Below are positions 12,617 through 38,092 of a DNA stretch of 55,125 nucleotides, piece by piece. The stretch comes from a virus. The stretch's first letter is position 1. The number at the start of each line of letters is the position of its first letter. The translations under genes and the position numbers were made by a program. The stretch lies in IMG/VR virus record IMGVR_UViG_3300037189_000415, positions 1 to 55,125 of that record; one strand, written 5' to 3'. The notes under the pieces are model-generated. The model made no database searches and was not told where the DNA came from. It saw only the letters and a program-made list of their open reading frames with translations.

Positions 12617-12696
12617 AAGATTACAGCTTCGCAATTCTCGTGACTATGTTCTGCATAGTCATGATATTTTTTGCACTTCTGATGATGGGGGTGTGA
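12613..12696 (+). CDS. Very short single-pass membrane peptide (27 aa)
   Basis: The frame MKDYSFAILVTMFCIVMIFF then ALLMMGV starts at an ATG that overlaps the previous stop (ATGA) and ends in TGA at 12694-12696. Nearly the whole peptide is one hydrophobic helix. It is coupled to its neighbours and followed by another membrane protein one base later. Short membrane peptides in early phage operons may act on host membrane complexes, but the function here is unknown. Confidence 0.5.
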   Translation: MKDYSFAILVTMFCIVMIFFALLMMGV

Positions 12697-12904: not shown

Positions 12905-13086
12905 AACGTCTGTTCACGCTACGGCATGGCAGGGGTGGAGCTATGGTGCATGTCCTTACATCGGATAACCGCATCGAACCTGTCCACTTCGGCAACAAGA
13001 TGGTAGCCAAGCAAGCCCGTGATAGCGGCAATGGCTTGGTGGTATCCAAAGGTTATGACCATAAACTTTACAAAGGAGATAGATAA
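12901..13086 (+). CDS. Basic hypothetical protein (61 aa)
   Basis: It reads MKRLFTLRHGRGGAMVHVLT and then DNRIEPVHFGNKMVAKQARD. It is basic and probably a small beta-alpha protein. It overlaps its neighbours by four bases upstream (ATGA) and one base downstream (TAATG), so it is tightly coupled to the MoxR-like ATPase gene. I know no function. Confidence 0.55.
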   Translation: MKRLFTLRHGRGGAMVHVLTSDNRIEPVHFGNKMVAKQARDSGNGLVVSKGYDHKLYKGDR

Positions 13087-14072
13087 TGCGAGCCGCAACA
13101 CTTAAAACAACCATCAAGTCCCTGTTCCCCATACAGCGTACTATCTGCATCGAAGGCAGTCCGGGGGGTGGTAAGACAACCATCGTCCATGAAGTTGCCA
13201 AGGAGATGGATGTACCCTGCATCGAACGGCATATGCCTACCATGTTGGTCGAGGACTTCGGCATCCTGTTCCCTGATGGTTCCGATCAACTGAAATACAA
13301 GTTGCCTGATTGGTTCCCTATCAAGGGTAAAGCCCCTGAGCGTGGCATCTTGCTGTTCGATGATCGTAACCAAGCCAATGCCGATTTGCAAAAGGTGCTT
13401 GCCAACATATGCCAAGCCCGAACATTACACGGCACACCAATGCCTGATGGGTGGATGGTTATCTCAACAGGTAACCGTCAGACTGACAGAGCAGGTGCTA
13501 ATCGTGTCCTTGGTCATTTGCGTAATCGTGAGACAGTCTATGAACTTGACACACACCTTGATGACTGGACATCATGGGCTATTGACAACGGTGTCAAGCC
13601 TGAGGTTGTAGCGTTCATTCGCTTTCGTCCCAACTTGTTGCATGACTATGACCCACAGCGTGACCAGAACGCTACACCTCGTTCATGGGTTGAGGGTGTA
13701 TCAGATGTACTTGGTACTGTCCCTGCCGAGGCTGAGTATGAGTCATTCAAGGGTGCTGTAGGTGAAGGTGCTGCTGCTGAGTTCGTTGGGTTCGTAAAGA
13801 TATTCCGTACTTTGCCCAACCCTGACGCTATCCTGCTCAATCCAACCACGAGTGATGTACCCAAAGACCCTGCAACGCTGTATGCCCTGAGTGGTGCATT
13901 GGCTGATCGTGCTACTGAATCCAACATGGAACGAGTATGTACCTATGCAGAGCGTATGGGTGGTGACTTCTCAGTACTGACCGTCTCATATGCCGCTCGT
14001 AAGAAACCTGAGTTGACCAACACGCAAGCATTTACGAAGTGGTCGTTGGCACATCAGGACATCCTGTTTTAA
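13086..14072 (+). CDS. MoxR-type AAA+ ATPase (328 aa)
   Basis: Walker A GSPGGGKT is at residues 24-31, a Walker B-like ILLFDD at 88-93 (Asp-Asp where many have Asp-Glu), a sensor-1 Asn-Arg in VISTGNR near 125-131, and an arginine-rich RVLGHLRNR region that could supply the sensor-2 or finger Arg. The pattern EDFGILFPD (about 56-64) resembles MoxR/AAA_5 loops. These ATPases usually act as chaperones with a VWA partner; here the VWA-zincin partner is two genes downstream. It is translationally coupled to the preceding gene (TAATG) and followed by a small hairpin. Confidence 0.85.
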   Translation: MRAATLKTTIKSLFPIQRTICIEGSPGGGKTTIVHEVAKEMDVPCIERHMPTMLVEDFGILFPDGSDQLKYKLPDWFPIKGKAPERGILLFDDRNQANADLQKVLANICQARTLHGTPMPDGWMVISTGNRQTDRAGANRVLGHLRNRETVYELDTHLDDWTSWAIDNGVKPEVVAFIRFRPNLLHDYDPQRDQNATPRSWVEGVSDVLGTVPAEAEYESFKGAVGEGAAAEFVGFVKIFRTLPNPDAILLNPTTSDVPKDPATLYALSGALADRATESNMERVCTYAERMGGDFSVLTVSYAARKKPELTNTQAFTKWSLAHQDILF

Positions 14073-14077
14073 CCACC

Positions 14078-14094
14078 GAGGGGCAATGCCCCTC
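14078..14094 (+). terminator. Small hairpin between ATPase gene and the 282-aa gene
   Basis: The stem GAGGGGC/GCCCCTC closes an AAT loop just after the ATPase stop codon. No T-run follows, so it probably affects mRNA stability or processing more than termination. Confidence 0.45.
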
Positions 14095-14120
14095 ATTCAA
14101 CAACATCATGGAGAAATGAA

Positions 14121-14969
14121 ATGAACCTATCAGACCGAGCATTACTGGTGCAACTGTCCATCTCACAATGGACTGCCCGTAAGTATGACAAGAAGGCAAC
14201 CCAAGAGGTAGCCATGACCTTCAATACATCGAAGGATGCAGGACGCTACAACAAGTCGTTGCTACCCATGAACGACTACCTTGATCGTGTCCATAAGAAA
14301 ACCACTCATATCCGTGAGAAGTTCTACAAGAACACTCTGCCATGGGGTATGGAGGGTACGATGATGTTGCCTACAACCAACTATCTGTCCTTCATGACTG
14401 AGTTCCGCAAGGAGAAGTCTGAGTGGATGACCCTAGTGCAGGACTTTGTAACCGAGTATCCACGGTTGCAGATGGATGCACAGCGTGTCCTTGGCGGGTT
14501 GTATGCTGACTCTGACTATCCGTCATCATTTGACATTGAACGCAAGTTCAAGATCGACATGGCTGTGTTCCCTGTACCCAATACAGACTTCCGAGTAAGC
14601 ATAGCGTCAGATGAATTGACACGCATCCAACAGGATGTTGAGGCACGAGTAACCAATGCTCAAGCCGAGGCTATGAAGGAAGTATGGACTCGACTGTATG
14701 ACCGAGTAAAGCATATGGCTGAGAAGTTGGCTGACCCCAAGGCAATCTTCCGAGATACCTTGGTAGATAACTTGAAAGACCAATGCTCCATGTTGTCTCG
14801 ACTGAACTTCATGGATGACCCTGACTTGGAATCTATGCGACAACAAGTTGAGGGAACCCTTGCATCGCATCACCCCGATGCCTTGCGTAATGACCCCGAT
14901 CTTCGCCGTGATACAGCGGCTGAAGCCAAAGCAATCATGGACAAAATGTCCATCTTTATGGGAGCCTGA
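14121..14969 (+). CDS. Phage protein linked to the MoxR/VWA pair (282 aa)
   Basis: The helical protein contains LSISQWTARKYDKKATQEVA at the start, a conserved-looking patch KNTLPWGMEGTMMLPTTNYL (about residues 68-90), and FPVPNTDFRVSI (about 152-163), then a long helical tail. I recognise it only as a recurrent neighbour of MoxR-like ATPases in phages. The ATG has the conserved leader CATGGAGAAATGAA. It lies between the ATPase and the VWA-zincin, so it is likely a third component of the same system. No catalytic motif is visible. Confidence 0.7.
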   Translation: MNLSDRALLVQLSISQWTARKYDKKATQEVAMTFNTSKDAGRYNKSLLPMNDYLDRVHKKTTHIREKFYKNTLPWGMEGTMMLPTTNYLSFMTEFRKEKSEWMTLVQDFVTEYPRLQMDAQRVLGGLYADSDYPSSFDIERKFKIDMAVFPVPNTDFRVSIASDELTRIQQDVEARVTNAQAEAMKEVWTRLYDRVKHMAEKLADPKAIFRDTLVDNLKDQCSMLSRLNFMDDPDLESMRQQVEGTLASHHPDALRNDPDLRRDTAAEAKAIMDKMSIFMGA

Positions 14970-14970
14970 T

Positions 14971-16146
14971 ATGACTAGCGTAATGCCAACATCTGTGGTG
15001 AGGAACACCAAGTACAAAGACATGACGCCTCTGACTGATGCTCAGAAGGCGGTACAACACAAGCGAATCATCAAGGCTCGTACTGCCTTGGTGTTGGAGC
15101 ATCCGTTCATCGGTAGCATTGCATTGAACTTGCCATTCAACTTCAATGACAACATCCCTACTGCTCGTACCAATGGCAAGCGGATTGAATATCAACCCCG
15201 CTTTGTGGAATCATTGACCGATGAGGAGGTTAAGTTCCTCGTTGCCCATGAGTGCTTCCATCCCATGTTGGAACATAACTTCCGCCGTGGTGGTCGTGAC
15301 CCTCGCCGATGGAACAAGGCAGGTGACTATGTAATCAACCAACTGTTGACTGACGATAGCATCGGCAAGATGCCTAAGGATGGACTACTGAACCCTGCAT
15401 TGCACCAAGCAGGTAACGGTACGACTGATGGTATCTACAACTTGTTGCCCGAGGATGATGGCGGTGGTGACGGTGATGACCCGATGGATGACTGCGAGGA
15501 TGGTGACGGTTCACCTGCCGAGAAGGAGCAACAAGCGGCAGAATGGAAGGTCAAGGTAGCACAAGCGGCACAAGCGGCAAAGATGATGGGCAAGATGTCG
15601 GCAGGTCTTGAGCGTCTTGTTGCTGAGGTATTGCAACCCAAGGTAGATTGGCGTGATGTATGGTATCGCTTCTTGCAGAAGTGTAAGAACGACACTCGTT
15701 CCTTTGCTAGACCCAACCGTAGGTTCATTGCACAAGGACTGTATCTGCCCACTACTAGCGGTGAATCCCTTGGTGAGATTGTGTTTGCCATTGACTGCTC
15801 AGGTTCCATTACTCAGCAAGTCATTGACCAGTTTTCGGCAGAGATTCATGTAACCAAGGATGACTTCAACCCATCTGCCATTCACCTCATCTACTTTGAT
15901 AGCGAGGTCTCCCACTATGAACGGTTCGGTAGGGATGACACATTGCATGTCGAGCCACATGGCGGTGGTGGTACTGACTTTGCCCCTGTGTTTGAGTTCA
16001 TGGCAGAGCGTCAGATCGAACCTGTTGCAGTAGTGTTCCTGACTGACCTGTGTTGCAACTCATTCGGTAATCAGCCTGACTGCCCTGTGCTGTGGGTATC
16101 TACCGATGATGGTACTGCACCGTTCGGTGAAGTGGTGGTGATGTAA
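14971..16146 (+). CDS. VWA-domain zincin (DUF2201-like) protein (391 aa)
   Basis: The N-terminal domain has HECFH at residues 93-97, a zinc-binding HExxH motif, followed by EH and by WNKAGDYVINQLL, as in DUF2201-like VWA metallopeptidases. A long acidic linker (EDDGGGDGDDPMDDCEDG, residues 161-178) leads to a VWA domain with the MIDAS triad DCSGS (275-279), Thr-Asp at 335-336 and Asp in FLTDL (about 359). It is the partner of the MoxR-type ATPase. The start at 14971 follows the previous stop by one base; a longer in-frame extension lies inside the upstream gene and is not used. Confidence 0.85.
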   Translation: MTSVMPTSVVRNTKYKDMTPLTDAQKAVQHKRIIKARTALVLEHPFIGSIALNLPFNFNDNIPTARTNGKRIEYQPRFVESLTDEEVKFLVAHECFHPMLEHNFRRGGRDPRRWNKAGDYVINQLLTDDSIGKMPKDGLLNPALHQAGNGTTDGIYNLLPEDDGGGDGDDPMDDCEDGDGSPAEKEQQAAEWKVKVAQAAQAAKMMGKMSAGLERLVAEVLQPKVDWRDVWYRFLQKCKNDTRSFARPNRRFIAQGLYLPTTSGESLGEIVFAIDCSGSITQQVIDQFSAEIHVTKDDFNPSAIHLIYFDSEVSHYERFGRDDTLHVEPHGGGGTDFAPVFEFMAERQIEPVAVVFLTDLCCNSFGNQPDCPVLWVSTDDGTAPFGEVVVM

Positions 16147-16897: not shown

Positions 16898-17530
16898 ATG
16901 GCAACAGTACGATTCAGCAAAGAACTACAAGACGCAATACTCAACAATGCGCGAGGTGTATTTGGTAATAAGGTAGCGGCGGCGCGAGATGCCAAGCCTG
17001 ACAATGCGTGGGGTGAGCGTATCTACAGCACATTGTTTGGTGAACATATCGTGCATCTCAATGCAGTACCTACCCACTTCTTTAAGATGGTGGATAAGAT
17101 AAAGGTAGATAGGGTTGGCGGCATCACAATCAACTGTGAGTTCAATCTCAACAGTACTAAACCTTTCCCTTATTCTTTCCCTAATAGCGAGTATGCTAAG
17201 AAGGCAAGCAACTATGGTGACGAGATTGAATTGAGAGATCATCTCGTATGGGGAGAGTTGTATGCAGATGTTGTTCGTTGGCGTGATGGTGTCAAGGATA
17301 TAGAAGCAAAGCGTGATGAGTTTGTCAAGCAAGTAAGGACAATCATTGAAGCACATGCTACCCTTGCACCTGCTCTCAAGATGTGGACACCACTATGGGA
17401 TTTGGTTCCTGAGGAATACAAGAACCGTCATCGTGAGGTGAAGGAACGAGAGAAGAAGGAAGTATCTCTCGATGGTGTGGACTTGTCCTCACTCACATCC
17501 ATTGTGGTCGCTAACAAACTAACACGCTAA
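16898..17530 (+). CDS. Nmad5-like (putative DNA base modification) protein (210 aa)
   Basis: The sequence MATVRFSKELQDAILNNARG, then WGERIYSTLFGEHIVHLNAV and FKMVDKIKVDRVGG, resembles a phage family I associate with Nmad5 (nucleotide-modification-associated domain 5). No classical methyltransferase motif is visible, so the enzymatic role is not shown. It may help modify or bind phage DNA. GGAG precedes the ATG, spaced seven bases. The next gene follows after a further AGGAG. Confidence 0.5.
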   Translation: MATVRFSKELQDAILNNARGVFGNKVAAARDAKPDNAWGERIYSTLFGEHIVHLNAVPTHFFKMVDKIKVDRVGGITINCEFNLNSTKPFPYSFPNSEYAKKASNYGDEIELRDHLVWGELYADVVRWRDGVKDIEAKRDEFVKQVRTIIEAHATLAPALKMWTPLWDLVPEEYKNRHREVKEREKKEVSLDGVDLSSLTSIVVANKLTR

Positions 17531-17539
17531 GGAGATAAC

Positions 17540-18406
17540 ATGACAGTAGCAACTAAAAACTGGTGGAACACATGCGAACTGCGCACCTATGATGATTTCC
17601 TAAAGTACTACATGACTGCAAGGACTAAGGACAAGGGCAAGCCCTTGCGTTCATGGGCTAGGATATTCCTCGTTGGTGATACGCTAGAGTTCCGCTTCGG
17701 CAGCTTCAAGTTCGGTGAACTAACACCTGACAACATCTTTACATTCGTAGCAACACCCCATGCTGTGCGTAGTAATGCGGCGGTGACATTCGCTTCGAGT
17801 TTGTACAAAGCCATACCTATCATGTGGCAACGAGTCGGTACTGCTAGGTATCGCGTATGCCATACATCCAAGGTGGCTACATCATCTTCCTACAATGAGT
17901 ACTACAACACACAACAAACCAATATGGAGTGGGCATACATGCGTACTTCTGCGCCTGAGTACTTCGCAGGAATACAGTTCAACATGTTGACAGGTGAGTG
18001 CGTAAACAGACAAGCCGATCTCACATCTAACATCAATAAAGATACCCGCAAGGTATGGCTCAACTCCCTTAGGAAATTCAAGTATGGTATCAAAGCCCGA
18101 CTGCGCATTGGTGCGTTTGACCCTATCATAGAGAGCGTAAAACAATTACCTAAGAACCAACAACAAGTACCTGAATGGTCTAACCCACGGTGGATTGATT
18201 TGTTATACCAATCTATCCGAGATAACAATCACCCTATGGAATTACTACAAGGGTTTTCCGCACATGCAGTCTATGACAGATGGTACTATCATCGTGGAAA
18301 CATAAAACCTGCGGACATACTAGCTGTTGTAGACTCTATCTGTACGACACATAGCATTGATCTGCGCAAACGATTCGGTGTATTCGACGAGGAACCAAAG
18401 ACATGA
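17540..18406 (+). CDS. Hypothetical phage protein (288 aa)
   Basis: The protein has an N-terminal KNWWNTCELRTYDDFLKYYM, a Phe/Thr-rich beta region (RFGSFKFGELTPDNIFTFVA), and a helical C-terminus (IDLLYQSIRDNNHPMELLQG). It is rich in aromatic residues and has no membrane segment. Its stop overlaps the next ATG (ATGA), so it is translated together with the Ntn-hydrolase-like gene. I do not recognise it. Confidence 0.65.
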   Translation: MTVATKNWWNTCELRTYDDFLKYYMTARTKDKGKPLRSWARIFLVGDTLEFRFGSFKFGELTPDNIFTFVATPHAVRSNAAVTFASSLYKAIPIMWQRVGTARYRVCHTSKVATSSSYNEYYNTQQTNMEWAYMRTSAPEYFAGIQFNMLTGECVNRQADLTSNINKDTRKVWLNSLRKFKYGIKARLRIGAFDPIIESVKQLPKNQQQVPEWSNPRWIDLLYQSIRDNNHPMELLQGFSAHAVYDRWYYHRGNIKPADILAVVDSICTTHSIDLRKRFGVFDEEPKT

Positions 18407-18849
18407 CCATCGTTGTATGGGATGGCAGTACTCTCGCTGTCGATAGAGGTGTATCAGATGGCTTTACCATGTGGGAACAAGACAAAACATGGAGGTTGGG
18501 TAACGCAATACTGACTGGTGTCGGTAGCATGACGCTCGTCCTTGCGATGCGTGAGTGGTACATCAGAGGAAGATTACCCGACCAGTTCCCATCTGAGCAG
18601 ACATTACCTGATAGATGGTGTGAGTTCATTGTCGCAACACCTGATGGTTTGTTTCGGTATGAGAGGTCACACATACCGATAGAACATGGCAAGAACAAGT
18701 GTGCGTTCGGCTATGGAAAAGACTTTGCTTATGGCGCAATGGCAATGGGCGCAACGGCAGAGCAAGCGGCACATGTCGCTTGTAAGTTCTCCCCTCATTG
18801 TGGTATGGGGGTAGATGTATTTAACCTAGGAGAATCAAATGAAAAGTAA
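18403..18849 (+). CDS. Proteasome/HslV-like Ntn hydrolase (148 aa)
   Basis: The N-terminus MTIVVWDGSTLAVDRGVSDG matches the start of proteasome beta and HslV subunits: the Thr after Met (T2) would become the N-terminal nucleophile after Met removal, with Asp14 in AVDRG and Lys28 in DKTW at roughly the places of D17 and K33. The C-terminal part FAYGAMAMGATAEQAAHVAC, then GMGVDVFNL, also matches the family. The protein is short and has no propeptide. A phage-encoded subunit could form its own protease ring or work with a host or phage ATPase. The function is inferred. Confidence 0.7.
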   Translation: MTIVVWDGSTLAVDRGVSDGFTMWEQDKTWRLGNAILTGVGSMTLVLAMREWYIRGRLPDQFPSEQTLPDRWCEFIVATPDGLFRYERSHIPIEHGKNKCAFGYGKDFAYGAMAMGATAEQAAHVACKFSPHCGMGVDVFNLGESNEK

Positions 18850-26636: not shown

Positions 26637-29531
26637 ATGAACACGCTTGAATTTTTGGAGCGGGTTCTTCCGTCTGAGGGGTTATATTGTTCGTTCACTG
26701 TAGTAGGGAAATACCCTAAGCAGTGTCACCACCAAACGATAGAAGAACTTGCTAATGAGGTATTGGCACAGAGCCAAGCAGGACACAACACGTATTTCGC
26801 AGTCTCGTCATTCCTGACAGACGAGAGCCGTGAACAGGTAAACGTCAGGGCGATCAAGACCTTCGCGCTCGACATCGACTGCGGTGAGGGTAAGCCGTAT
26901 CCATCGTGGAAGGAAGGACTGCTAGTCCTGTCCGACTATATTCGTGAGCTTGGTTTGCCGGGGCCGATGATTGTTCGGTCAGGCAACGGGCTACATGTTT
27001 ACTGGACATTGACCGCCGAGATGCCGCCCGAGGAGTGGCGTCCGATTGCGTTTGCGTTCAAAGCATCTGCTGTTGCCAAGTTCAAGGAACTGGCAGAGAA
27101 GCGCGGCATCATCTCGCCGACTCCGAGTAAACCCTATATCGACCCTGCTGTACCTGCTGACCATGCGCGGGTGCTACGTCCTGTGGGAACCACCAACACC
27201 AAAGGTGGCAACACAGTATCTTTGATATTCGATGCGCCCCCTATTGACCCACAACAGTTCGCATCGTTTTTCCGCATTGCCCCTAGCTCACCGGCTGAGC
27301 TACCCACACGACACACATCCAACAGTACATTGCTAGATAGTCTGGCAGTCAAACAAGAATGGCCTCCGTCAAACCCTGACCCTATCAAGAACAAATGCGC
27401 TCAGATTAAATGGGCGGTAGAGAACCAAGACAAGATGGACGAGCCATCTTGGTACAACGTCATGGGTGTGGCTGCGTTTTGCAAAGACCCTGAGGAAGTA
27501 GCTATCCAATGGAGCAATGAACATCGTACATTCAACGAAGCCGAGACTCGTAGGAAGATTGCTCAATGGCAAAACAAGACCAGTGGCCCGACCAAATGCG
27601 AAACATTCGAGGAGAACAATCCTGAGCGATGTAAGGGTTGTAAGTTCAAAGGCAAAATCAAAAGCCCGAACGGGTTAGGTGTTCAATACCAAGAGGTGCA
27701 GATAGCTCCCGATGCGCTTGATGCTGCTGCCTATGAGGTGGAGTTACCCAAACCTTTTAAGAGAACTGATCGAGGTATCAAAGTAACTCTCGATGATACC
27801 GATATTGATGTATGCCCGTTTGACATATACCCCGTGGGGTATGGCAAAGATGAAGCCCTTGGCTATGAGGTCGTCCGGTATCACTGGAACCGACAACATG
27901 TTGGTTGGCAACCGCTGACCCTACGTCAAGCTTTCCTCACCGATGGTAGCCGTGAGTTTGCAGGAGCCATTGCAGACCAAGGCATCGTCCTTTTCAACAA
28001 AAAACAAACGGAGTACTTTCAATATATGCTGCGCACCTACATGGATAAATTGCGGCAGCAGAGAGCCATGACGAACCTCTATTCCACAATGGGATGGAAG
28101 CACGACTACACCGAGTTCGTTATGGGTGACACCATCCTGCGCTGCAACAAGAACGGAACAATCACAGAGGAACAAATTCTTCTGTCATCAACATCACAAC
28201 GTCTGGGCCATGAGTTGTACGGCACAGCGGGAAGTCTTGAGGAGTGGCGGGAGTTCACCCGCATCATGCCCAAGGTCAACCTGATGGGTCAGATGTTTGC
28301 AATCGGCGTGAGTCTATCGGCTCCGTTATACGCCTTCACTGGACTTAAATCCACAACCGTGTCGCTCTATGGGCCGACAGGCTGCGGCAAAACATTGGCT
28401 CAGTTGTGGGGTCAGTCTGTGTGGGGTGTGCCTGAGAAGCTGCACTTCGCTGCCAAGTACACACAGAACGCTGTGTTCGCACGATTTGGTTTGTATTGCA
28501 ACATGCCACTGACCATTGACGAAACCACGATGATGGATGTCAAAGATGTTGGTGACTTCCTGTACTGGATTTCACAGGGTCGAGACAAGGCACGACTTAA
28601 CCGCAATGCAGAGGAACGTGAGGCTCGTGAGTGGGCGGCTCCTGCCATCCTGTCGAACAACACATCCATGGGTTCTAAACTGGTAGCGTCCGGCATGGAG
28701 ACCACGGCACAGATGGTTCGCCTGTTGGAGATTTCGCTGCAAGTCCACCCGATATTTAAGTCAGGTAGTACCGCAGGTCGAGACATCTACAACTTCCTGT
28801 CCACCAACTACGGTCACGCAGGTCGTGAGTTCGTGAAGTATCTTATGCAACTTGGCCCTGAGGGTATGAAGGCTATTGTGGATGAGGCGTTCAAATCTTT
28901 CCCCAAGAAGTATGACCATCACTTTACTGGCGAGGAACGCTTTTGGGAGCAAGCTATTGTGTTAGCTGATTTGACTGTACGCCTTGCCTATGAGAACAAC
29001 ATCATCGCTTTCCCGCCTGAGGTGATGACCAACTGGGTACTGGGTCAGATTGGTGCAATGCGTAAGACCGTCATCGACTATCAGACTGATAGCTTCGACA
29101 TGCTGACCGAGTATCTGAACGAACATGCCAACACCGCGCTGACTGTATGGCACACAGGTAACACTAAACCTGCCGTTGATATGCAACGCCTACCGCGTGG
29201 TGAAGTCCGTGCGAGATTCGACTGCCACCGTAGGGACATGACCTCAAAGTTTGACCACGGTACGGTGATGGTTGACCGGACGCACTTCCGTAAATGGCTT
29301 GCTCTGAAGGGTTCGGACTACCGTGGCTTCATGCGTGAGATGGCTTCTGCCAACTTAGTGGTAACACCCAAGTCCAACAAGGCAAGCCTTGGTAAGGATA
29401 GCCCTATCAAGTTGCCACAGTCCTATGTGATTGCGCTGAATCTAAACCATCCCCGCCTCAGAGGAATCCTAGAGGACGAGGATGCGGCTGTCGATGACGC
29501 CATGCTTGGTCAACTGAAGGTCGTTCAATAA
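26637..29531 (+). CDS. Primase-helicase (AEP-like plus DUF927-like), 964 aa
   Basis: The N-terminal domain has FALDIDCG (about residues 83-90) and RSGNGLHVYWTL (about 118-129), then VLRPVGTTNTK, as in archaeo-eukaryotic primase (AEP) domains that use two Asp and a His. A middle region with CETFEENNPERCKGCKF may bind zinc. The C-terminal part is a DUF927-like helicase/ATPase with Walker A YGPTGCGKT (about 579-587), TIDETTMMD and AILSNNTSM. It probably primes and unwinds DNA for the PolA. The ATG at 26637 follows AGGGG. Its stop overlaps the opposite-strand gene by seven bases. Confidence 0.88.
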   Translation: MNTLEFLERVLPSEGLYCSFTVVGKYPKQCHHQTIEELANEVLAQSQAGHNTYFAVSSFLTDESREQVNVRAIKTFALDIDCGEGKPYPSWKEGLLVLSDYIRELGLPGPMIVRSGNGLHVYWTLTAEMPPEEWRPIAFAFKASAVAKFKELAEKRGIISPTPSKPYIDPAVPADHARVLRPVGTTNTKGGNTVSLIFDAPPIDPQQFASFFRIAPSSPAELPTRHTSNSTLLDSLAVKQEWPPSNPDPIKNKCAQIKWAVENQDKMDEPSWYNVMGVAAFCKDPEEVAIQWSNEHRTFNEAETRRKIAQWQNKTSGPTKCETFEENNPERCKGCKFKGKIKSPNGLGVQYQEVQIAPDALDAAAYEVELPKPFKRTDRGIKVTLDDTDIDVCPFDIYPVGYGKDEALGYEVVRYHWNRQHVGWQPLTLRQAFLTDGSREFAGAIADQGIVLFNKKQTEYFQYMLRTYMDKLRQQRAMTNLYSTMGWKHDYTEFVMGDTILRCNKNGTITEEQILLSSTSQRLGHELYGTAGSLEEWREFTRIMPKVNLMGQMFAIGVSLSAPLYAFTGLKSTTVSLYGPTGCGKTLAQLWGQSVWGVPEKLHFAAKYTQNAVFARFGLYCNMPLTIDETTMMDVKDVGDFLYWISQGRDKARLNRNAEEREAREWAAPAILSNNTSMGSKLVASGMETTAQMVRLLEISLQVHPIFKSGSTAGRDIYNFLSTNYGHAGREFVKYLMQLGPEGMKAIVDEAFKSFPKKYDHHFTGEERFWEQAIVLADLTVRLAYENNIIAFPPEVMTNWVLGQIGAMRKTVIDYQTDSFDMLTEYLNEHANTALTVWHTGNTKPAVDMQRLPRGEVRARFDCHRRDMTSKFDHGTVMVDRTHFRKWLALKGSDYRGFMREMASANLVVTPKSNKASLGKDSPIKLPQSYVIALNLNHPRLRGILEDEDAAVDDAMLGQLKVVQ

Positions 29532-32500
29532 GCCAGTATCTCCGAGGCAGTCCTGAGATCAGTACGGGATGCCTTCGGAGCAGTACGCATGAACCGTTTC
29601 TCCGCAGGACGGAGAGCTTCTTTGTACGCCTTGGCTGCGTTCTCTTGGAAGTTTGAGATGAACAGCGATGTGCCGTAAGTCTCACGGTTCCAATCATTCA
29701 CGGCTGCTTGGATAGCTTGGACTCGTTCCATATCCCCTGACATACGCGCCTTAATCCAAGCGTGTTGGTATCCCGCAGAGATTTCTCTTTGGTAATCCGT
29801 GGCACGTTTGGCTACACGGATGAACTCGTATTGCTGTGATGCAGCCGTTGGGTAGAAGCCTAGTGCGCGGGTAATCATCGTACCTGCATGGAGGTCTTTC
29901 GAGATGACGTAACCACGACGGTCGATGATTGCACCTGCATCGTCATACGCCAACATGTCTCCAAGTGCGCGACCCATAGTCACCGGGGATTCGCGCAACA
30001 CATCCGCCAATGACAAGCGATCAGTAAACGCAGCCTTAACAGAGTTCGGGATAGTTGCTGCTACGCCTGCGAGCATTGACCAAGCTGGGCCTGCTACTTC
30101 AGCAATTTCTCTACCCACATCAGCGCCAGCCAAGAGGATACCAGTACCGGGAATCATGTTGCCAGTTGATGTGCGTGAGGCAAGGTCAGCAATAGACAGA
30201 TAGTTAGCCGCACCACGCAGAATAAATGGCGCAGACCCCGGAACTATTTCCTCCATTACCTTGGCAAGTTCGTAGCGAACGCTGCCCTTTTTCCACCCGA
30301 GAATCTTTTGTCCGATGGTATCAATGATGTCCTCTGCGTCCTCAGCAAATGGCAGACCCATCAAGCCGGTCATCATCCACATGGACAGCAGCATTACTCC
30401 CTTGCCCCCGGGGCTTAGTCGGTTCAACAACTGAATAGTTGTTGTGGGGAAAACCTTATACATATAGATGAACGACTGAATACCCGAACGCCATGCAGAT
30501 GGACGGTTAAGTACCGAGTATTCACCGAGCGAGTAGCGCAGAGTTTCCACCGCAAAGTTACGGGCTTCCGCAGCAGCTTGAGTTTCAGACAAGCCAGCAG
30601 CGATGGCGCGGTCATACGCCAAGCGATAAGACGCAAGACCTAAGCCTCTGCGTACTGCTTGTTCTGTGGAGTTAAACGTCCACATCATCGTGTCGAGGGC
30701 TTTCTGCTTTGCTCCCGATGTTGCACGACCACGAGCCGTTGCCGTCAGTGCATTGGACTGCGCAGGAATCATCACACCCTCACGGATTTCACGAGCGAGG
30801 AACTTAGCCTCATGCTCCTTGATTCCATACTGGGCTTGCAGCTTAGGGTCAGCCGCGATCTTGTCGTAGAACTCAGCAGTGTCGAAGCCAGTCTCCTCTG
30901 TGCCAATGGCCTTTAGAGATTTGGTTACGGCTTTGCGCAGACCGACTTGGTTCAGTGCAACTGAGAACGCCGCATACGACTTACCAAATCCGAAGCCACC
31001 ACCGAAGGCAGTCTTGGAGTTGTAAGTTGCCAGATATGGGATGCCGTTGGTCAGAGCGCCGATGTAGTTCAGCGCACCAGTGGCGACCGATAGACCGAGT
31101 TGGAACACACTGGTATATGCGCGGACAGATGACACAACTTCACCTGAGCCAAAGTCCGACTCATCCACATGCTTGTTGCCATCAATGAACGCCAGTAGTT
31201 GCGATGCCTCGTTGTAGTACATGTTCGACTTCTGATAGCCACCGGCTTCATTGGTCTTGTTGTACATGTAGGCGTACCGCTCGTAGCGTTTCTTGGCGTA
31301 GTTACGTTCCTCAAGGGTGGCTGTAGGATTCTTCTCCATGTCCTCCCACATCTTCTTGTACTTGTTGAGCGTACCCTTGTCGCCGTTCCAGAGTTCCTGA
31401 GACGAGCGCAGGTTACGGTTCATGATCTCAGCCAAACGTGGACGCATAGTCACCTTGGCGATAGTAGATGCACGCGCCTCAATATGTTGCATGATGGCTT
31501 GCACACCGTCGCTGCTGGCCCCCGGTGTAAACGCACGTTGCAATCGCTGACGAGCGCGGGCGTTCTGCGTAGTCAACGCAGTAATCACAGTCTCCATTTT
31601 CGTTGGGTTAAGCGTGATCCCGAATTGACGCAAGCCACGTACAAACTCGTTGAGGTTTAATTCAGGCGGTGCTGCAATGGCGTCAAGGGCCGCGCCGGGA
31701 ACAGCTTGCAGGTAAACATCTTGCAGTGTGTATGTGCCTTCAGCTTCGTTGTAGGCTTCTGCTTTGTACGCCTTACCTTGGAACAGTCCTTCGTTAATCT
31801 CCCGAGCAAAGGCAATCGCTTCGTCCTTGTTCTCGAACTGCGAGTAGACCAGTTGCTCTTTGTAGTCTTGCTTCAGGCGAACCACACGACCCTTGGAATC
31901 CACTGCGTTGACGCGAACCTGATGTGCGCCCTGACGGAGGATGGGGGTATACCCTGTAGCCAGTGTGTTCTTAGTGTAGATGTCAGCATCACCGTTGGAA
32001 ATCTCAGAGATGATGATGTCCTTCAGGCGGTTCTGAATTGTGAACTTAGCTTGAGCGTCATCCTCAGGGATAACCAAACGCTGCTTAAACTCTTTGGCAA
32101 ACGCAACCATGTCGTCTGCCATGTTCTTATCGTCGAAGAAATTAGACACGGCTACATAGTCGCGGTCTTGCCCCAAAATGATAGCCTTGTTTACCGCAGC
32201 AATAAAGTCGTTGGCTTTCTCAACTGAGTCAGGGTTGAGGATGGGGTCACCATTCTCATTGAAGGTTTGCGCAGCGGTATAGAACTCTTTGTAGCGGCGA
32301 TAGATTTTCTCAAACGCCTTACGCTCAGCAGCAGTCAGAGCAGGTTTGCCATCTTCACCGGGCTTGGTAATGTCCGCGATCTCACGGAACGCCAAGTCTT
32401 TATCTTGGACATACGCCAGATACCTAGCCTTGAGCAACTGAATCTCCACATCACGCATAGCTTCACGAGCGCGGAGGTAACCCTGCCAGACCTTGCCATC

Positions 32501-35500
32501 TTCCGTTAGGTCTTTGATGCCGGGGACATTGATCTTCTCTTTGACCGTCTTACCATCTTTGGCTACATCAATCTCAAACGAGTAGCCGTTCTTAGCCTCA
32601 TCAAACGTCACCAGACCCATCTTGTATAGGCGGTCGATCTCAGGCTGGTTTGGAACCAGTTGCCCTTCGTCATTGACTGTGAACAGGCGGACGTTGCCTA
32701 GCTTGCGCTTGTCTCCGAGGGTGGTGACTTTGTAACGCAGACCGTTGTACAAGATGCTGTTGAGTTGGTCGAGTTCATCAGTAGTGATACCGCCTACCTC
32801 GCCAGCCGAGAATCTACCCGCACCCAGCTTAACCGCACGGTTCAGGATGACGCCCAGCTTTTCCTTCATGGACACCTTGATGTTCATGGATAGGCTGAGA
32901 CCTTCGTTTAGAACTTCATTGACCGCAGACAAGCCAGCGTTCTCACGAGCGCGGAAGTTGGTCAGGCTAAAGAACTTGGTTATGAACTTGTCAGCACCGA
33001 ACGAGAAGTTACCAGCCTTATCGGTGAACTGCTGAATTGCTTTGTCGAAGTCCATTGTCCAGCCACCGACTCGATCTGTCATGAGTCCAGCAGCTAGGTT
33101 GTCAGCACGCAGGTTACCTGCCTGTGCAAAGCGACCAGAGCCATCGTAGTCCTGACCCATGGAGTAGGCTGAGAATCTTTGTGCAACTTCTTTGGCATCG
33201 AAGAACCCTGCGGTAGCGCCGGAGCGGGTGTAACGACGCGCTTGGTTGACGAAGTAACGTGCTGCCTCATCACCGAACTTAATGCCCAGCTTGTTGAGTG
33301 CGCCCTTGATTGCGTTCCAGACACGAGCCAAGACATTGGACTCGATGGTGGCAGCGAAGTCAGCAAGGTATTCTTCCGTGGCTTCAGCACGAGACATTCC
33401 GCGCACTGCCATGGCAGCATCCACATCGCCTTGCATACTTGGGCTACGCTTGTAGATTTCCTCCATCAAGGAGTTGAATTGCTTCTCGCCGATGAGAGCG
33501 CGGAGACCGTTGTGACCAATGGCTTCGTGTGCCAGCACAAAGTTCAACTGCTGCTCAGTCGCTACGCGATCACTGAACACGATGACGGTATCGCCGTTGA
33601 ACGAGTACGCCACGGCAGATACATTGTCGAAGTCACCTTGGGTACGGGCAGCAGCCGCACGGGCATACAGTTCAGGGTTACGTGCCTTGAGGTCTGCTTG
33701 GTTCTTGTAGATAAAAGTCTTTGGCTTGATAGTCAGTTTGGCTAGGAAGTTAGCCACCAACATCTTGATCTTACCAACCGGCACTGGGTTGTTGATAGGC
33801 GTACCATCGTCGCGCTCGAAGCGACCAGTATCGTCACGGTTGCCAAAAGAGTTCCAATCTTCCAAGTTGAATGGTGCTTTGTATTCACCCTTGGCTTCGC
33901 CTTCTTCTGAGATACGCACATCAGGATCGACATCGCCACGATCTTCAGCTTCAAAACCACGGAGTTCGTTGTCGGATACATCACGGACGAAGACACGCAG
34001 TTTGCCGTTGACCACACGGGTCTTGGGTTTGCTGCCATCAAAGTACGCAGAGATCGGGTTACCACTAGCAGTCTCGAAATCTTCCAGATCAGCAGCTTGA
34101 ACCTCAGCGTAGAGGTTTGTTAGTTTTGCGATTGCATCCTGCTGTTGCTTGGCGGTGTACGCCATACGGTTGGAGTTCAACCGCTGAATCTCCTCGTACA
34201 ACTTAGTGGCAGGATTACGTTTGGTCTTGTCAGTAGCGCCGCCGTCCTCGGAAGTTTGCTGTCCGTTCTTGGTCAGCTTCTTCTGTGTTTCTTTTGGGAA
34301 GTTATCTAGGCGAAGCTGACCACCATCAAGATAAAGCTGTGCGTCATCGACAGCAATACCAGTCAGGCGGGTCTTAATCTGTGGCAGCAGTTGGCGGTCT
34401 TGTGCGTATTGGAACCATGGCTTATCTGCACCCTTGTTCTCACCACGGGTATACACAGCCTCTATGGATTGCTGTGTGTTGACTTCGTTCAGCACAATCT
34501 GGTCAATCAGACTACGCTCTTTGTTGTCCCAGCGTTTGTTCTTGAGGTACTCGCGGGCGCGAGTAACAGCATCAATAGTATTGGTATCCTCAGGCGAGAA
34601 CAGCGCGTACTGCACCACTGTCTGCATAGCTTCAGCTTTACCTTTGAGGGTATTGGCTTCCTCAATATTATTGATTTCCTCATTGACTACATCCAGTGGC
34701 GTGAGTGTGCCTTCGAGCAAACCTTTTTCTTTCTGCTCGTCGTTGTAGGACTCAACCAATAGATCAGCCTCAGCCATCGTAGCCCTATTACGAGCTACGA
34801 GGTTAGTCCATACAGACTGGTTTTGCTTAGAGAGTTTGTCGAACGTCGGGGCGTTCTCTGGCTTCTTATCCTCCCATTGCTCCTCAGCAGTGGCAGGCTC
34901 TGGTTCGACCTTGGTCTCAGCCTTTACCTCGGTCTTTCCCTTTTTTAGGGAAGCAGCCTTTGGCGCAGGAACAAACCCGCGCTTCTTCTCAGCCTCGACT
35001 ACTTCTTTCCGAACAGTTTTTGGCTGATCTTCTTGCTTCTTGGTTTTGAGGGCTTGACCTTTGCTGGCAGATTTGCGTTGTCCGGTGTTTCCTTCTCCCA
35101 CTCCTTTGCCAGCTTCGGTTCGTTCTTGTACATCCACCGGCGCTGTGCCTCGCTCTTGAACGGCATTTTGTACCTCTCCTTTATATACAGTACGGATTGT
35201 TGTATCCCCAGCTTGATCTAACAAGAAAGCCCGATGATGCCCATCGTGAATGTAAAAGGAACCATCGGGTAATGCCGATACGACTATTGGGTTTTGTGCA
35301 GTAAAGTTACGCAGACGTTGTTGGGCCTGCGGGTCTGCCTTAAACGCATCAACCATCTCGCGCATGGTCATATATTTATCAATATTTTTCATCCCAACGA
35401 CATTAGTCAGTATGTCAAATACTTGGGATTCAGTAACACCCTGAGTACCAATTGCTCCATTAGGGCGTTTTATGTTTGCAATAAGAAAATCAAACGATCC

Positions 35501-38092
35501 TGCTGCCGATTTTACTTCTTGCTTTGCTCCCTTCTTCAGATTAGACACGGCCTTTGCCACAGTGACAGCACTTACGGGTTTACCAGTAGGCTTTGCCTGA
35601 GTGACACCCTTTGCCACAGTGGGCTTAGGTAGTGGTTGTTTCTTGCCTGCACTCTTGAGCGCCGCTACTGTGGGTTCACCCTTCTGGGTAAACAGTGCCA
35701 TTTGTCCTGCACGGCGGAGATCAGCCGGAGTAACAGGTGTCACAGGAGCCGCAGGTATGGGAAGTTGTGTACCTACACCACGGCGCAACCCCTCAGCACG
35801 CGAAGGACGAGGTAGTTCACCACGCTTGAACAGCGATAGTTGCTGTGGTGTGCGCTCACGGGGCGCAGTCATTGGTAGCGGAGGTGTCTGCGGTGTGTTT
35901 TCCTGTGGGAAAGCCAAGTCAAGCTGACGCTGATTCTGCGCTGCTAGATTCAAGCGGTCGAGTTCAGCTTCACGCTGTGCAGCGGCAGCGGCCTCAGCCT
36001 GTTGAAACGCAGCAGCACGAGCCTGCTGATCTTGGATTTGCTGGAGTTGCCCAGCCATCTGATTGTTGAACGGAGCCTGCGGTGCTGGCGGCGCAAACTG
36101 CAAAGCACCTTGTCGTGGATCATTTATTGGTAGCGACAAAGGAGCCACATTGGGCTGTGACATGCCCTGCCGCATGTAGTTAATTGCTTCAGGGTTTTCA
36201 TTCAACAGATCAATGTTGAGGTCTTTCATGGAGCCATAATTGACCTGTCCCCCCATACGGGACGCTAACTCTTGCGCGGATATGTTGCCGCCAAAGACAT
36301 CAAGTACGCCCTGAGAACCCTGAGTCATACTAGGCGGCACATTGCCAGTCTGCCTGAGCATTTGGTCAGGATAAGCCACGCCTTCGGGCGTGACCATCAT
36401 CATCGGATTTCCGGCTGGACTTACAGGCGAAGTCGGGCCACCCAGCATAGGTGGGGGTGGTGGGGGTAGACCGGGAAACTCGCGGTTAAACGTGCCGCCT
36501 TGCGCAGGTGGAGGGGGTGGAGGTGGTGTTGGGCTGACAGGTGCAAGCGAAGTACCACCGGCAGGTGGAGATGGGTCTTTACCGCTGTCCAAAAGGTTTA
36601 CTGCTATCTTGTTGTCACGAAGATTGCTCAGCCCGCCGATTGGGCCACCAACACCAAAGCCTGCGGCAAAGGCGTTCAGTATGCGGCGACGACCTTCAGG
36701 CGAATCAATGTTTACATCCTTGTTGGCGTAGATGCCAAGGGATTCTTGGAACGCTTCAGTCGCACCTTCGGCTGTACCACCTACGATGGCTCCAGTACCG
36801 AACCTACGACCTACCTCAAGAGACTTACCGCCCAGAGTCTTAATATCGCCAAGGCGTCCGCGTGCCATCCACTGCGGTGTACCGCTCAATCCAAAGACAC
36901 GGGAAGCTGCCAAGAACTCAGCAGACGATTCAGCCAAACCGTAGGGAATACCAAGAGCTAGTGCCATCAGGCGGTCGCCTTGACCATCGCCGCTCTCTAA
37001 AGTTTCCCCGTAAATATCAGCGATACCCGTGGCAATGTTCTGCCCAGTGGTAGCAATCGTCGCACCGCCAATCTGACCGGCACGTTTGTAATACTCAGAC
37101 AGCGTATTCTGGGCTGCGTTACGCAAAGTAGCAGCTTCTTGCTGGATAGCAAGCCGTTCCGCTTGGCTCTTAGCCTGTGCAGCAAGCACAGCGTCGTAAG
37201 GAATTAAGGCACGAGACGCCGATGGGTTCTTGATTGAGGCAGCAACTGTAATCCCAGCAGCTTCGTTTAGGAGTTTTGTCTCCGCCGCGTCCAAGGCTTC
37301 ACCGCGCAGATATTTCTGCCCAGCTACCGCCAAAGCGCGTTTAAATGTTTCTTTACCAGTCAGCGCCATAATCGCGCCGCCCGTAGCGGTTACGGGGTTC
37401 GGGCCACCCCCGGCTGCACCGCCAGCAACAAAGCCTAATGCACCAGTAACTATAGACTCAACAAGGTTCGGGCCTTGCTGCGCAAGGTTTGCAGTAAACC
37501 AGTCTAGTAGGCCACGATCTCCGCTAACAACTCCGTGCCCAAAGTCTATTTTCTCGCCGACGTTTGTGAATTCCCGCTGATACACCTGACTACGGGACAA
37601 GTCCTTGATCTGTTGTTCGACAATCTTTTTTCCGGCGTCCTCAAACCCAAGCCATTGCAGACCGTAACCGCCAAGCAACTGTAAGCCATCAACACCAATA
37701 CCCCAGTTGGCTTTTTGTTTTTGCCACTCGCTAGGGTCAACAATGCTTTTTGCGTGTTGCAGGTAGCCAGACACGGAAATAGGACGCCAGTCACCTTCGG
37801 GTAGCGGGGCACGGACATCAGGGCGAAGAATTTTAAGCGACTCAACAACAGCGGTATCGTCGTCGGCGTCAAACGTCGCACCATTTACAAACAACCTGTT
37901 AGTAGACGGGCTGTAAGCTACTGACCCTGATGGGATAAACGGTTGAGACGCAGGGACTTGGACGGTAGGCGTATTGGCTTTAAGCGCCTGCGAGTACTGT
38001 CCAAGACTGATACCCCCAAGATTACTCAAGTCTGCATTAGGCTGCGGTGTCAGCCCATAAGGAAGTCCTACCGTCAGTGCTTGGTCAGCCAT
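29525..38092 (-). CDS. Giant polyvalent internal virion protein (2855 aa)
   Basis: The 2855-residue protein is one of the largest possible for such a phage. The N-terminal region has glycine-rich hydrophobic segments (about 210-240), then Pro-rich linkers (about 510-560). A ParB-like nuclease-type domain has IHDGHHRAFLLDQAGD near residue 950. A metallopeptidase-like patch LAHEAIGHNGLR (His1522, Glu1523, His1527) has HExxGH spacing. The C-terminal region near 2480-2640 (RRGLGLASYRLAYDRAIAAG and on) resembles LPD38-type polyvalent domains. It is the last gene of the internal-protein set, so it is probably packed in the virion and ejected. A promoter of its own is not visible. Confidence 0.78.
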   Translation of the reverse strand: MADQALTVGLPYGLTPQPNADLSNLGGISLGQYSQALKANTPTVQVPASQPFIPSGSVAYSPSTNRLFVNGATFDADDDTAVVESLKILRPDVRAPLPEGDWRPISVSGYLQHAKSIVDPSEWQKQKANWGIGVDGLQLLGGYGLQWLGFEDAGKKIVEQQIKDLSRSQVYQREFTNVGEKIDFGHGVVSGDRGLLDWFTANLAQQGPNLVESIVTGALGFVAGGAAGGGPNPVTATGGAIMALTGKETFKRALAVAGQKYLRGEALDAAETKLLNEAAGITVAASIKNPSASRALIPYDAVLAAQAKSQAERLAIQQEAATLRNAAQNTLSEYYKRAGQIGGATIATTGQNIATGIADIYGETLESGDGQGDRLMALALGIPYGLAESSAEFLAASRVFGLSGTPQWMARGRLGDIKTLGGKSLEVGRRFGTGAIVGGTAEGATEAFQESLGIYANKDVNIDSPEGRRRILNAFAAGFGVGGPIGGLSNLRDNKIAVNLLDSGKDPSPPAGGTSLAPVSPTPPPPPPPAQGGTFNREFPGLPPPPPPMLGGPTSPVSPAGNPMMMVTPEGVAYPDQMLRQTGNVPPSMTQGSQGVLDVFGGNISAQELASRMGGQVNYGSMKDLNIDLLNENPEAINYMRQGMSQPNVAPLSLPINDPRQGALQFAPPAPQAPFNNQMAGQLQQIQDQQARAAAFQQAEAAAAAQREAELDRLNLAAQNQRQLDLAFPQENTPQTPPLPMTAPRERTPQQLSLFKRGELPRPSRAEGLRRGVGTQLPIPAAPVTPVTPADLRRAGQMALFTQKGEPTVAALKSAGKKQPLPKPTVAKGVTQAKPTGKPVSAVTVAKAVSNLKKGAKQEVKSAAGSFDFLIANIKRPNGAIGTQGVTESQVFDILTNVVGMKNIDKYMTMREMVDAFKADPQAQQRLRNFTAQNPIVVSALPDGSFYIHDGHHRAFLLDQAGDTTIRTVYKGEVQNAVQERGTAPVDVQERTEAGKGVGEGNTGQRKSASKGQALKTKKQEDQPKTVRKEVVEAEKKRGFVPAPKAASLKKGKTEVKAETKVEPEPATAEEQWEDKKPENAPTFDKLSKQNQSVWTNLVARNRATMAEADLLVESYNDEQKEKGLLEGTLTPLDVVNEEINNIEEANTLKGKAEAMQTVVQYALFSPEDTNTIDAVTRAREYLKNKRWDNKERSLIDQIVLNEVNTQQSIEAVYTRGENKGADKPWFQYAQDRQLLPQIKTRLTGIAVDDAQLYLDGGQLRLDNFPKETQKKLTKNGQQTSEDGGATDKTKRNPATKLYEEIQRLNSNRMAYTAKQQQDAIAKLTNLYAEVQAADLEDFETASGNPISAYFDGSKPKTRVVNGKLRVFVRDVSDNELRGFEAEDRGDVDPDVRISEEGEAKGEYKAPFNLEDWNSFGNRDDTGRFERDDGTPINNPVPVGKIKMLVANFLAKLTIKPKTFIYKNQADLKARNPELYARAAAARTQGDFDNVSAVAYSFNGDTVIVFSDRVATEQQLNFVLAHEAIGHNGLRALIGEKQFNSLMEEIYKRSPSMQGDVDAAMAVRGMSRAEATEEYLADFAATIESNVLARVWNAIKGALNKLGIKFGDEAARYFVNQARRYTRSGATAGFFDAKEVAQRFSAYSMGQDYDGSGRFAQAGNLRADNLAAGLMTDRVGGWTMDFDKAIQQFTDKAGNFSFGADKFITKFFSLTNFRARENAGLSAVNEVLNEGLSLSMNIKVSMKEKLGVILNRAVKLGAGRFSAGEVGGITTDELDQLNSILYNGLRYKVTTLGDKRKLGNVRLFTVNDEGQLVPNQPEIDRLYKMGLVTFDEAKNGYSFEIDVAKDGKTVKEKINVPGIKDLTEDGKVWQGYLRAREAMRDVEIQLLKARYLAYVQDKDLAFREIADITKPGEDGKPALTAAERKAFEKIYRRYKEFYTAAQTFNENGDPILNPDSVEKANDFIAAVNKAIILGQDRDYVAVSNFFDDKNMADDMVAFAKEFKQRLVIPEDDAQAKFTIQNRLKDIIISEISNGDADIYTKNTLATGYTPILRQGAHQVRVNAVDSKGRVVRLKQDYKEQLVYSQFENKDEAIAFAREINEGLFQGKAYKAEAYNEAEGTYTLQDVYLQAVPGAALDAIAAPPELNLNEFVRGLRQFGITLNPTKMETVITALTTQNARARQRLQRAFTPGASSDGVQAIMQHIEARASTIAKVTMRPRLAEIMNRNLRSSQELWNGDKGTLNKYKKMWEDMEKNPTATLEERNYAKKRYERYAYMYNKTNEAGGYQKSNMYYNEASQLLAFIDGNKHVDESDFGSGEVVSSVRAYTSVFQLGLSVATGALNYIGALTNGIPYLATYNSKTAFGGGFGFGKSYAAFSVALNQVGLRKAVTKSLKAIGTEETGFDTAEFYDKIAADPKLQAQYGIKEHEAKFLAREIREGVMIPAQSNALTATARGRATSGAKQKALDTMMWTFNSTEQAVRRGLGLASYRLAYDRAIAAGLSETQAAAEARNFAVETLRYSLGEYSVLNRPSAWRSGIQSFIYMYKVFPTTTIQLLNRLSPGGKGVMLLSMWMMTGLMGLPFAEDAEDIIDTIGQKILGWKKGSVRYELAKVMEEIVPGSAPFILRGAANYLSIADLASRTSTGNMIPGTGILLAGADVGREIAEVAGPAWSMLAGVAATIPNSVKAAFTDRLSLADVLRESPVTMGRALGDMLAYDDAGAIIDRRGYVISKDLHAGTMITRALGFYPTAASQQYEFIRVAKRATDYQREISAGYQHAWIKARMSGDMERVQAIQAAVNDWNRETYGTSLFISNFQENAAKAYKEALRPAEKRFMRTAPKASRTDLRTASEILAY

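Follow-up and report, generated by a model that had tools for sequence, protein, structure and literature searches.

What would a phage need a MoxR-type ATPase and a VWA protein for? In a virus record of 55,125 bases (the window, meaning the whole stretch of DNA that was analysed), a AAA+ ATPase gene, a gene for a 282-aa protein and a gene for a zincin-VWA protein follow one another. A first-pass annotation, made from the sequence of the window, proposed a phage system that remodels or cleaves a host target early in infection. The questions that this raises are whether the three genes belong together, whether the set is peculiar to phages, and whether the peptidase is its core.

The locus and its setting

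The three open reading frames are real and lie in a row on the + strand, as the first-pass annotation had them. Gene 1 (13086..14072) encodes a MoxR/midasin-type AAA+ ATPase of 328 aa, gene 2 (14121..14969) a protein of 282 aa that appears to be a divergent DUF3150 relative, and gene 3 (14971..16146) a DUF2201 zincin-VWA protein of 391 aa (PF13203 plus PF09967). The start of gene 3 at 14971 directly follows the gene 2 stop codon (14967-14969). Upstream, on the same strand, a pattern scan found a terminator-like stem-loop with a T-rich tail (12638..12664). It is a possible transcription-unit boundary for the cassette, in a region where such sites were as numerous as expected from shuffled sequence. 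A hairpin 3' of the AAA gene was not clearly common to the relatives with which it was compared.

By its portal protein, the nearest named relatives of this virus are podoviruses, with Rhizobium RHph_TM phages first (34% identity) and Pelagibacter HTVC, Roseobacter CRP and HMO-2011 phages next. The replication genes of the window (PolA, exonuclease and helicase) are on the + strand and the portal, terminase and internal virion protein genes are on the - strand. The cassette is on the + strand upstream of PolA, and PolA follows it in 47 of 53 loci of this phage group. This position with the replication genes suggests that the cassette would be expressed early.

The three proteins

The gene 1 protein matched PHROG 1297 ('ATPase') with an E-value of 1e-70. 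As a single sequence it scored below the cut-offs of Pfam AAA_5 and AAA_3, and a profile built from 28 of its relatives had midasin chains as its best matches in the PDB (E 1.6e-15). Walker A (GSPGGGKT) occupies residues 24-31, where it had first been reported, followed by a Walker B region around D92, sensor-1 N130, an arginine-finger candidate at R148 and a sensor-2 region at P198-R199-x-W201. Residues G27, G29, K30, D92, N130, R148, P198, R199 and W201 are at least 97% conserved, and almost every one of 27 diverse homologues keeps the motifs. Motif conservation thus gives the protein the full MoxR-like set of Walker A and B, sensor 1, arginine finger and sensor 2, and by motifs and profiles its kin are the MoxR/midasin clade.

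Gene 3 matched both PF13203 (DUF2201_N; E 1.2e-48, 166.6 bits against a cut-off of 23.2) and PF09967 (DUF2201 VWA-like; E 3.1e-28, 98.8 bits against 26.4), each above its curated cut-off and both in one chain. The zincin and the VWA domain, which had been described as fused or linked, are therefore one polypeptide and not two genes. The HECFH (93-97) and DCSGS (275-279) motifs are at the positions originally given. The former supplies H93, E94 and H97 of the N-terminal zincin, with D119 as a candidate third ligand; the C-terminal VWA domain has the full MIDAS set of D275, S277, S279, T335 and D359. All of these residues other than D119 are at least 97% conserved, and HExxH is kept in every viral relative sampled (82/82 distinct viral and phage homologues). 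Structural comparison agrees with this assignment. The zincin weakly resembles the minimal peptidase selecase (profile E 0.0038, fold E 0.019), and in fold searches the modelled VWA domain matched the CLCA1 VWA domain (E 5.5e-4) and the MIDAS domain of human MDN1 (E 1.3e-3). Since Pfam, motif and fold all point to a zincin-VWA protein, we dropped the label 'HNH endonuclease' that PHROG 1314 gives to gene 3. In the window, the N-terminal domain is a putative metallopeptidase with an intact active-site motif. An NCBIfam search of the window proteins returned nothing useful.

The 282-aa protein had been listed as of unknown fold, and this can now be revised. Against PF11348 (DUF3150) it scored 15.1 bits, under the gathering cut-off of 24.9, and homologues with 35-40% identity in two other loci exceed that cut-off (28.5 bits in L133 and 36.0 bits in L134). 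The AlphaFold model (pLDDT 80, pTM 0.52) is mostly helical, with a small β element and long predicted helices at residues 85-127 and 163-204. The best Foldseek match of this model among viral structures was a DUF3150 protein (E 1.6e-19, TM about 0.5); against the PDB, a fold search found nothing at E < 0.001. Judged by its homologues and its predicted fold, gene 2 encodes a divergent DUF3150 relative. We use this term rather than calling it an outright member of the family because its own score falls under the cut-off.

Linkage in viral contigs

Homologues of the AAA and VWA genes occur in hundreds of phage genomes. Queries with gene 2 or gene 3 gave 122 viral-contig loci, some of which overlap on one contig, and 104 of these loci have the order AAA-DUF3150-VWA. 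The 282-aa protein is thus linked to the pair in relatives too. Of the other 18, 17 are plainly truncated by the end of a contig; in the remaining one (L058), gene 2 is preceded by about 0.6 kb that contains no AAA fragment.

The same trio on plasmids and conjugative elements

The cassette had been taken for a phage system, but the set is not peculiar to phages, since the trio is also found on conjugative plasmids and on an ICE-like element. Gene 2 matched 44 plasmid records, 38 of which have the three genes on one strand, in the order of the window and within 700 bases. They include Burkholderiales megaplasmids, whose AAA-DUF3150-DUF2201 cassettes are homologous to that of the window in all three proteins (about 30-40% identity) and share its order and strand, but are carried by plasmids instead of a phage and in some copies have lost the zinc site. 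Of the other six, one is split at the origin of the record, one has inserted genes and one has a gene 2 that is interrupted; the last three are Manganitrophus plasmids, which gave no zincin-VWA match. In the one Manganitrophus plasmid examined, DUF3150 lies beside another AAA gene, DUF1257 and DUF2997.

Two Bacteroidota loci, in Paraflavitalea and Tannerella, have the order AAA-VWA-DUF3150, and in both the genes are still adjacent. In Paraflavitalea the neighbours of the trio are conjugative-transposon TraJ and TraM, ParB and Prim-Pol.

A more distant version is present on plasmid pCAR1. ORF101-103 encode an AAA protein of the MoxR/CbbQ type, a DUF3150 protein (307.6 bits) and a VWA protein, adjacent, on one strand and in the order seen in the window. 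The pCAR1 VWA partner differs in being a 604-aa NorD/CoxE-like protein with no zincin match, the AAA protein is of the AAA_5/CbbQ_C kind, and the pCAR1 proteins are low in similarity to those of the window. Profile-profile alignments against single pCAR1 proteins were weak for genes 2 and 3, so the link between the two loci rests on Pfam assignments and gene order. Of the 1,118 plasmid records with a relative of the pCAR1 DUF3150 protein, 969 are typed as conjugative.

ORF100-103 of pCAR1 are conserved in R478, Rts1, SXT and R391 (PMC2642839). Taking that report together with work on SXT (PMC2791158), we infer that s067, s068 and s070 are the SXT counterparts of the AAA, DUF3150 and VWA genes. 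Deleting s067, s068 and s070 lowered SXT transfer by tenfold or less (PMC2791158), so a central role in DNA transfer is not indicated there. Because it recurs on conjugative plasmids and transposons, the trio looks like a tool common to mobile DNA rather than a protease restricted to phages.

Natural loss of the zinc site

Among plasmid copies of gene 3, one part of the protein can be lost and another is kept. The zinc site has been lost from 5 of the 15 plasmid-borne gene 3 proteins examined, in two lineages, and the MIDAS residues are intact in all five. In the Paraburkholderia lineage HExxH has become LKxxQ, and N115, D119 and N123 have changed too; in the Variovorax lineage it has become ATxxH, with N123 changed. 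The joint loss in Paraburkholderia makes D119 a likely zinc-site residue, and H102, which that lineage keeps, is probably not part of the site. Copies of the Paraburkholderia protein differ with a dN/dS of 0.09-0.13, and the protein is therefore still under selection.

The protease role that had been assigned to gene 3 is not a universal core. The zincin motif is present throughout the viral homologues sampled, but two plasmid lineages have lost the zinc site while the MIDAS stayed intact, and the pCAR1 VWA protein has no zincin match. The motor and the MIDAS are the invariant parts; the peptidase chemistry is not.

Pairs without a DUF3150 gene

The third gene is not invariant either. By profile, the AAA and VWA genes occur without DUF3150 in N4-like phages (gp24 and gp25), PA5oct, a Vequintavirus, Thermus phage phiFa and CRP-7, and on some Synechocystis, Sphaerotilus and Thermus plasmids. 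A profile search for a DUF3150 gene in the N4-like, rV5-like, PA5oct, Thermus phage, CRP-7 and RHph loci found none. As the AAA and VWA genes are kept where DUF3150 is absent by sequence, DUF3150 is not needed everywhere.

We considered whether DUF3150 joined the pair once and stayed. A single trio-bearing clade was rejected with a p-AU of about 0.005 in the VWA tree and in the AAA tree, both of which are quick trees with long branches. Because both trees reject it, more than one gain or loss of the third gene is probable.

Discussion

We propose that the trio is one ATP-driven remodelling machine serving an early, DNA-related step in the life of mobile elements, and we put the probability of this reading at roughly 0.55. 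By analogy with its MoxR and midasin kin, the AAA+ protein would form the ring motor. In NorQD, the VWA partner puts a finger into the AAA ring, the ring twists it and the client is remodelled, and the MIDAS of that system is a likely client site (PMC13036017). Following NorQD and midasin, the DUF2201 protein would dock on the AAA ring through its VWA domain, with the MIDAS metal site gripping the client. The DUF3150-like helical protein, to judge from its conserved linkage, may serve as third subunit or adaptor, delivering the client or keeping it in place. The zincin would be an accessory that can be lost; with an intact active site, such as that in the window, it could trim or cut the client after remodelling. 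The likely client is a protein complex that acts on the element's DNA as this enters or replicates, and it could be the element's own or the host's. This suggestion comes from the position of the cassette among DNA-processing and transfer genes in the phage, plasmid and ICE settings, which is weak evidence. Complex formation, client and timing are all inferred parts of the model.

The first-pass annotation had likened the genes to MoxR-VWA chaperone pairs, and both this logic and the linkage of all three genes are borne out. Like the trio, NorQ-NorD, RavA-ViaA and midasin (Rea1/Mdn1) combine a AAA+ motor with a MIDAS-bearing VWA partner or domain, and they act in metal insertion, respiratory complexes and ribosome assembly. 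They differ from the trio in having no zincin and no DUF3150 partner. Closer likenesses are found in phages. N4 gp24/gp25 and their orthologues in N4-like phages (Schitoviridae) are homologous AAA+ and DUF2201 zincin-VWA proteins, encoded near each other on the same strand (PMC2784036), but with no DUF3150 gene nearby by profile and with small genes or homing endonucleases between the two. The jumbo-phage pair of group 2.2 has the same VWA fusion architecture and a MoxR partner gene; it differs in belonging to much larger myoviruses and in being described, in the parts of that paper available to us, as a virion-assembly pair with no mention of a DUF3150 partner (PMC7824862).

That description raises an alternative for the trio itself, in which the MoxR-VWA proteins help virion assembly and the zincin processes structural proteins. 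For the jumbo-phage pair, the role was proposed by analogy with a system of Acidianus two-tailed virus (PMC7824862). The window groups the cassette with the replication genes, and its portal, terminase and virion genes run in the opposite direction; the trio is also carried by conjugative plasmids and a conjugative-transposon-like element, which make no virions. Position with DNA genes and presence on virion-less elements are both evidence against this proposal, and we regard it as quite improbable. Nearer to the first-pass annotation is an active host-targeting protease with the zincin as effector, fed by the AAA protein and its partners. The invariance of HExxH in the viral and phage homologues is what such an effector would lead one to expect, but the plasmid lineages that kept the MIDAS without a zinc site, and the non-zincin VWA of the pCAR1 trio, make it unlikely.

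Counter-defence or host takeover has more in its favour. Here the machine would unfold or cut a host protein, for example a defence or nucleoid protein, that incoming DNA meets. Phages and conjugative elements both need to survive on entering a new host, and the small effect of the likely SXT counterparts on transfer is what a recipient-dependent benefit would produce. Against this, the PADLOC matches were to generic ATPase motifs only, and a set so strongly conserved would suit a fixed client as well as a variable host target; we think it somewhat doubtful. A bacterial MoxR-vWA ternary conflict system of the VMAP type, acquired by the phage, would also have two shared core parts and a third gene (PMC7159879). 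The third protein, being DUF3150-like, largely rules that reading out: neither the middle nor the third protein matched a VMAP or effector domain in Pfam or in PADLOC, and the fused peptidases of those systems are mostly trypsin- or caspase-like (PMC7159879). We give it very little credence.

Parts of this picture are already known, namely the individual components, the AAA-VWA pair in jumbo phages (PMC7824862) and in N4 as gp24/gp25 (PMC2784036), and the plasmid AAA/VWA genes. In the open-licence literature we found no description of DUF3150 as a partner of MoxR or VWA genes, DUF2201 alone being named there, and none of a function for the trio. The link between the phage and plasmid trios and the losses of the zinc site appear to be new. 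The identity of the genes, the conservation of their motifs, their linkage across unrelated mobile elements and the disappearance of the zinc site from two lineages are direct observations.

For the remodelling machine that we favour, the zinc-site losses found in nature distinguish the motor-adhesion part from the protease part. A broader proposal, which we offer tentatively and hold to be possible rather than probable, is that DUF3150 marks a distinct three-part MoxR-VWA class on phages, conjugative plasmids and ICEs. The N-terminal module of its VWA protein would be interchangeable (zincin, dead zincin or NorD-like), and the client shared by the class would be a host or DNA-processing factor that is remodelled so that incoming DNA can establish. 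That phages and plasmids both carry the trio speaks against a role confined to virion assembly, and points to a task shared by elements that arrive in the cell as DNA.

Sequence Features Around and Downstream of the Cassette

Two further proteins are encoded behind the cassette on the + strand, at 16898-17530 and 17540-18406, and they lie downstream in 45 and 46 of the 53 relatives, respectively. The first has a weak likeness, at 19.3 bits and under the cut-off, to Nmad5, a nucleotide-modification-associated domain. The next + strand gene, at 18403-18849, matched PHROG 1040 ("peptidase HslV family", E = 2.6e-23); it sits 2.3 kb downstream of the cassette. Since only 10/53 relatives have this HslV-family gene, it is not a fixed partner of the cassette.

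Just 3' of the AAA stop codon, a perfect 7-bp hairpin (GAGGGGC-AAT-GCCCCTC, 14078-14094, + strand) was found. It has no T run and is not a clearly conserved feature among relatives. An open frame of 2855 aa occupies 29525-38092 on the - strand, the same strand as the structural genes.

Homologs and Family Annotation

The family of N4 gp25 and DUF2201 is labeled "HNH endonuclease" in PHROG 1314, and the same label appears in RefSeq phage records (e.g., NC_027381, NC_070861, NC_023581). This is apparently a library error that was propagated into RefSeq phage annotation. Three differently named cyanophage records (OL906435.1, OQ594354 and PP438419) are each 65,014 bases long with identical match scores, and are probably one phage.

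In CP114559.1 (2354-5376), DUF3150 adjoins an AAA ATPase. DUF1257 and DUF2997 accompany them, and a VWA-zincin match is lacking. Going by this gene set, DUF3150 may act with AAA motors in a wider range of settings.
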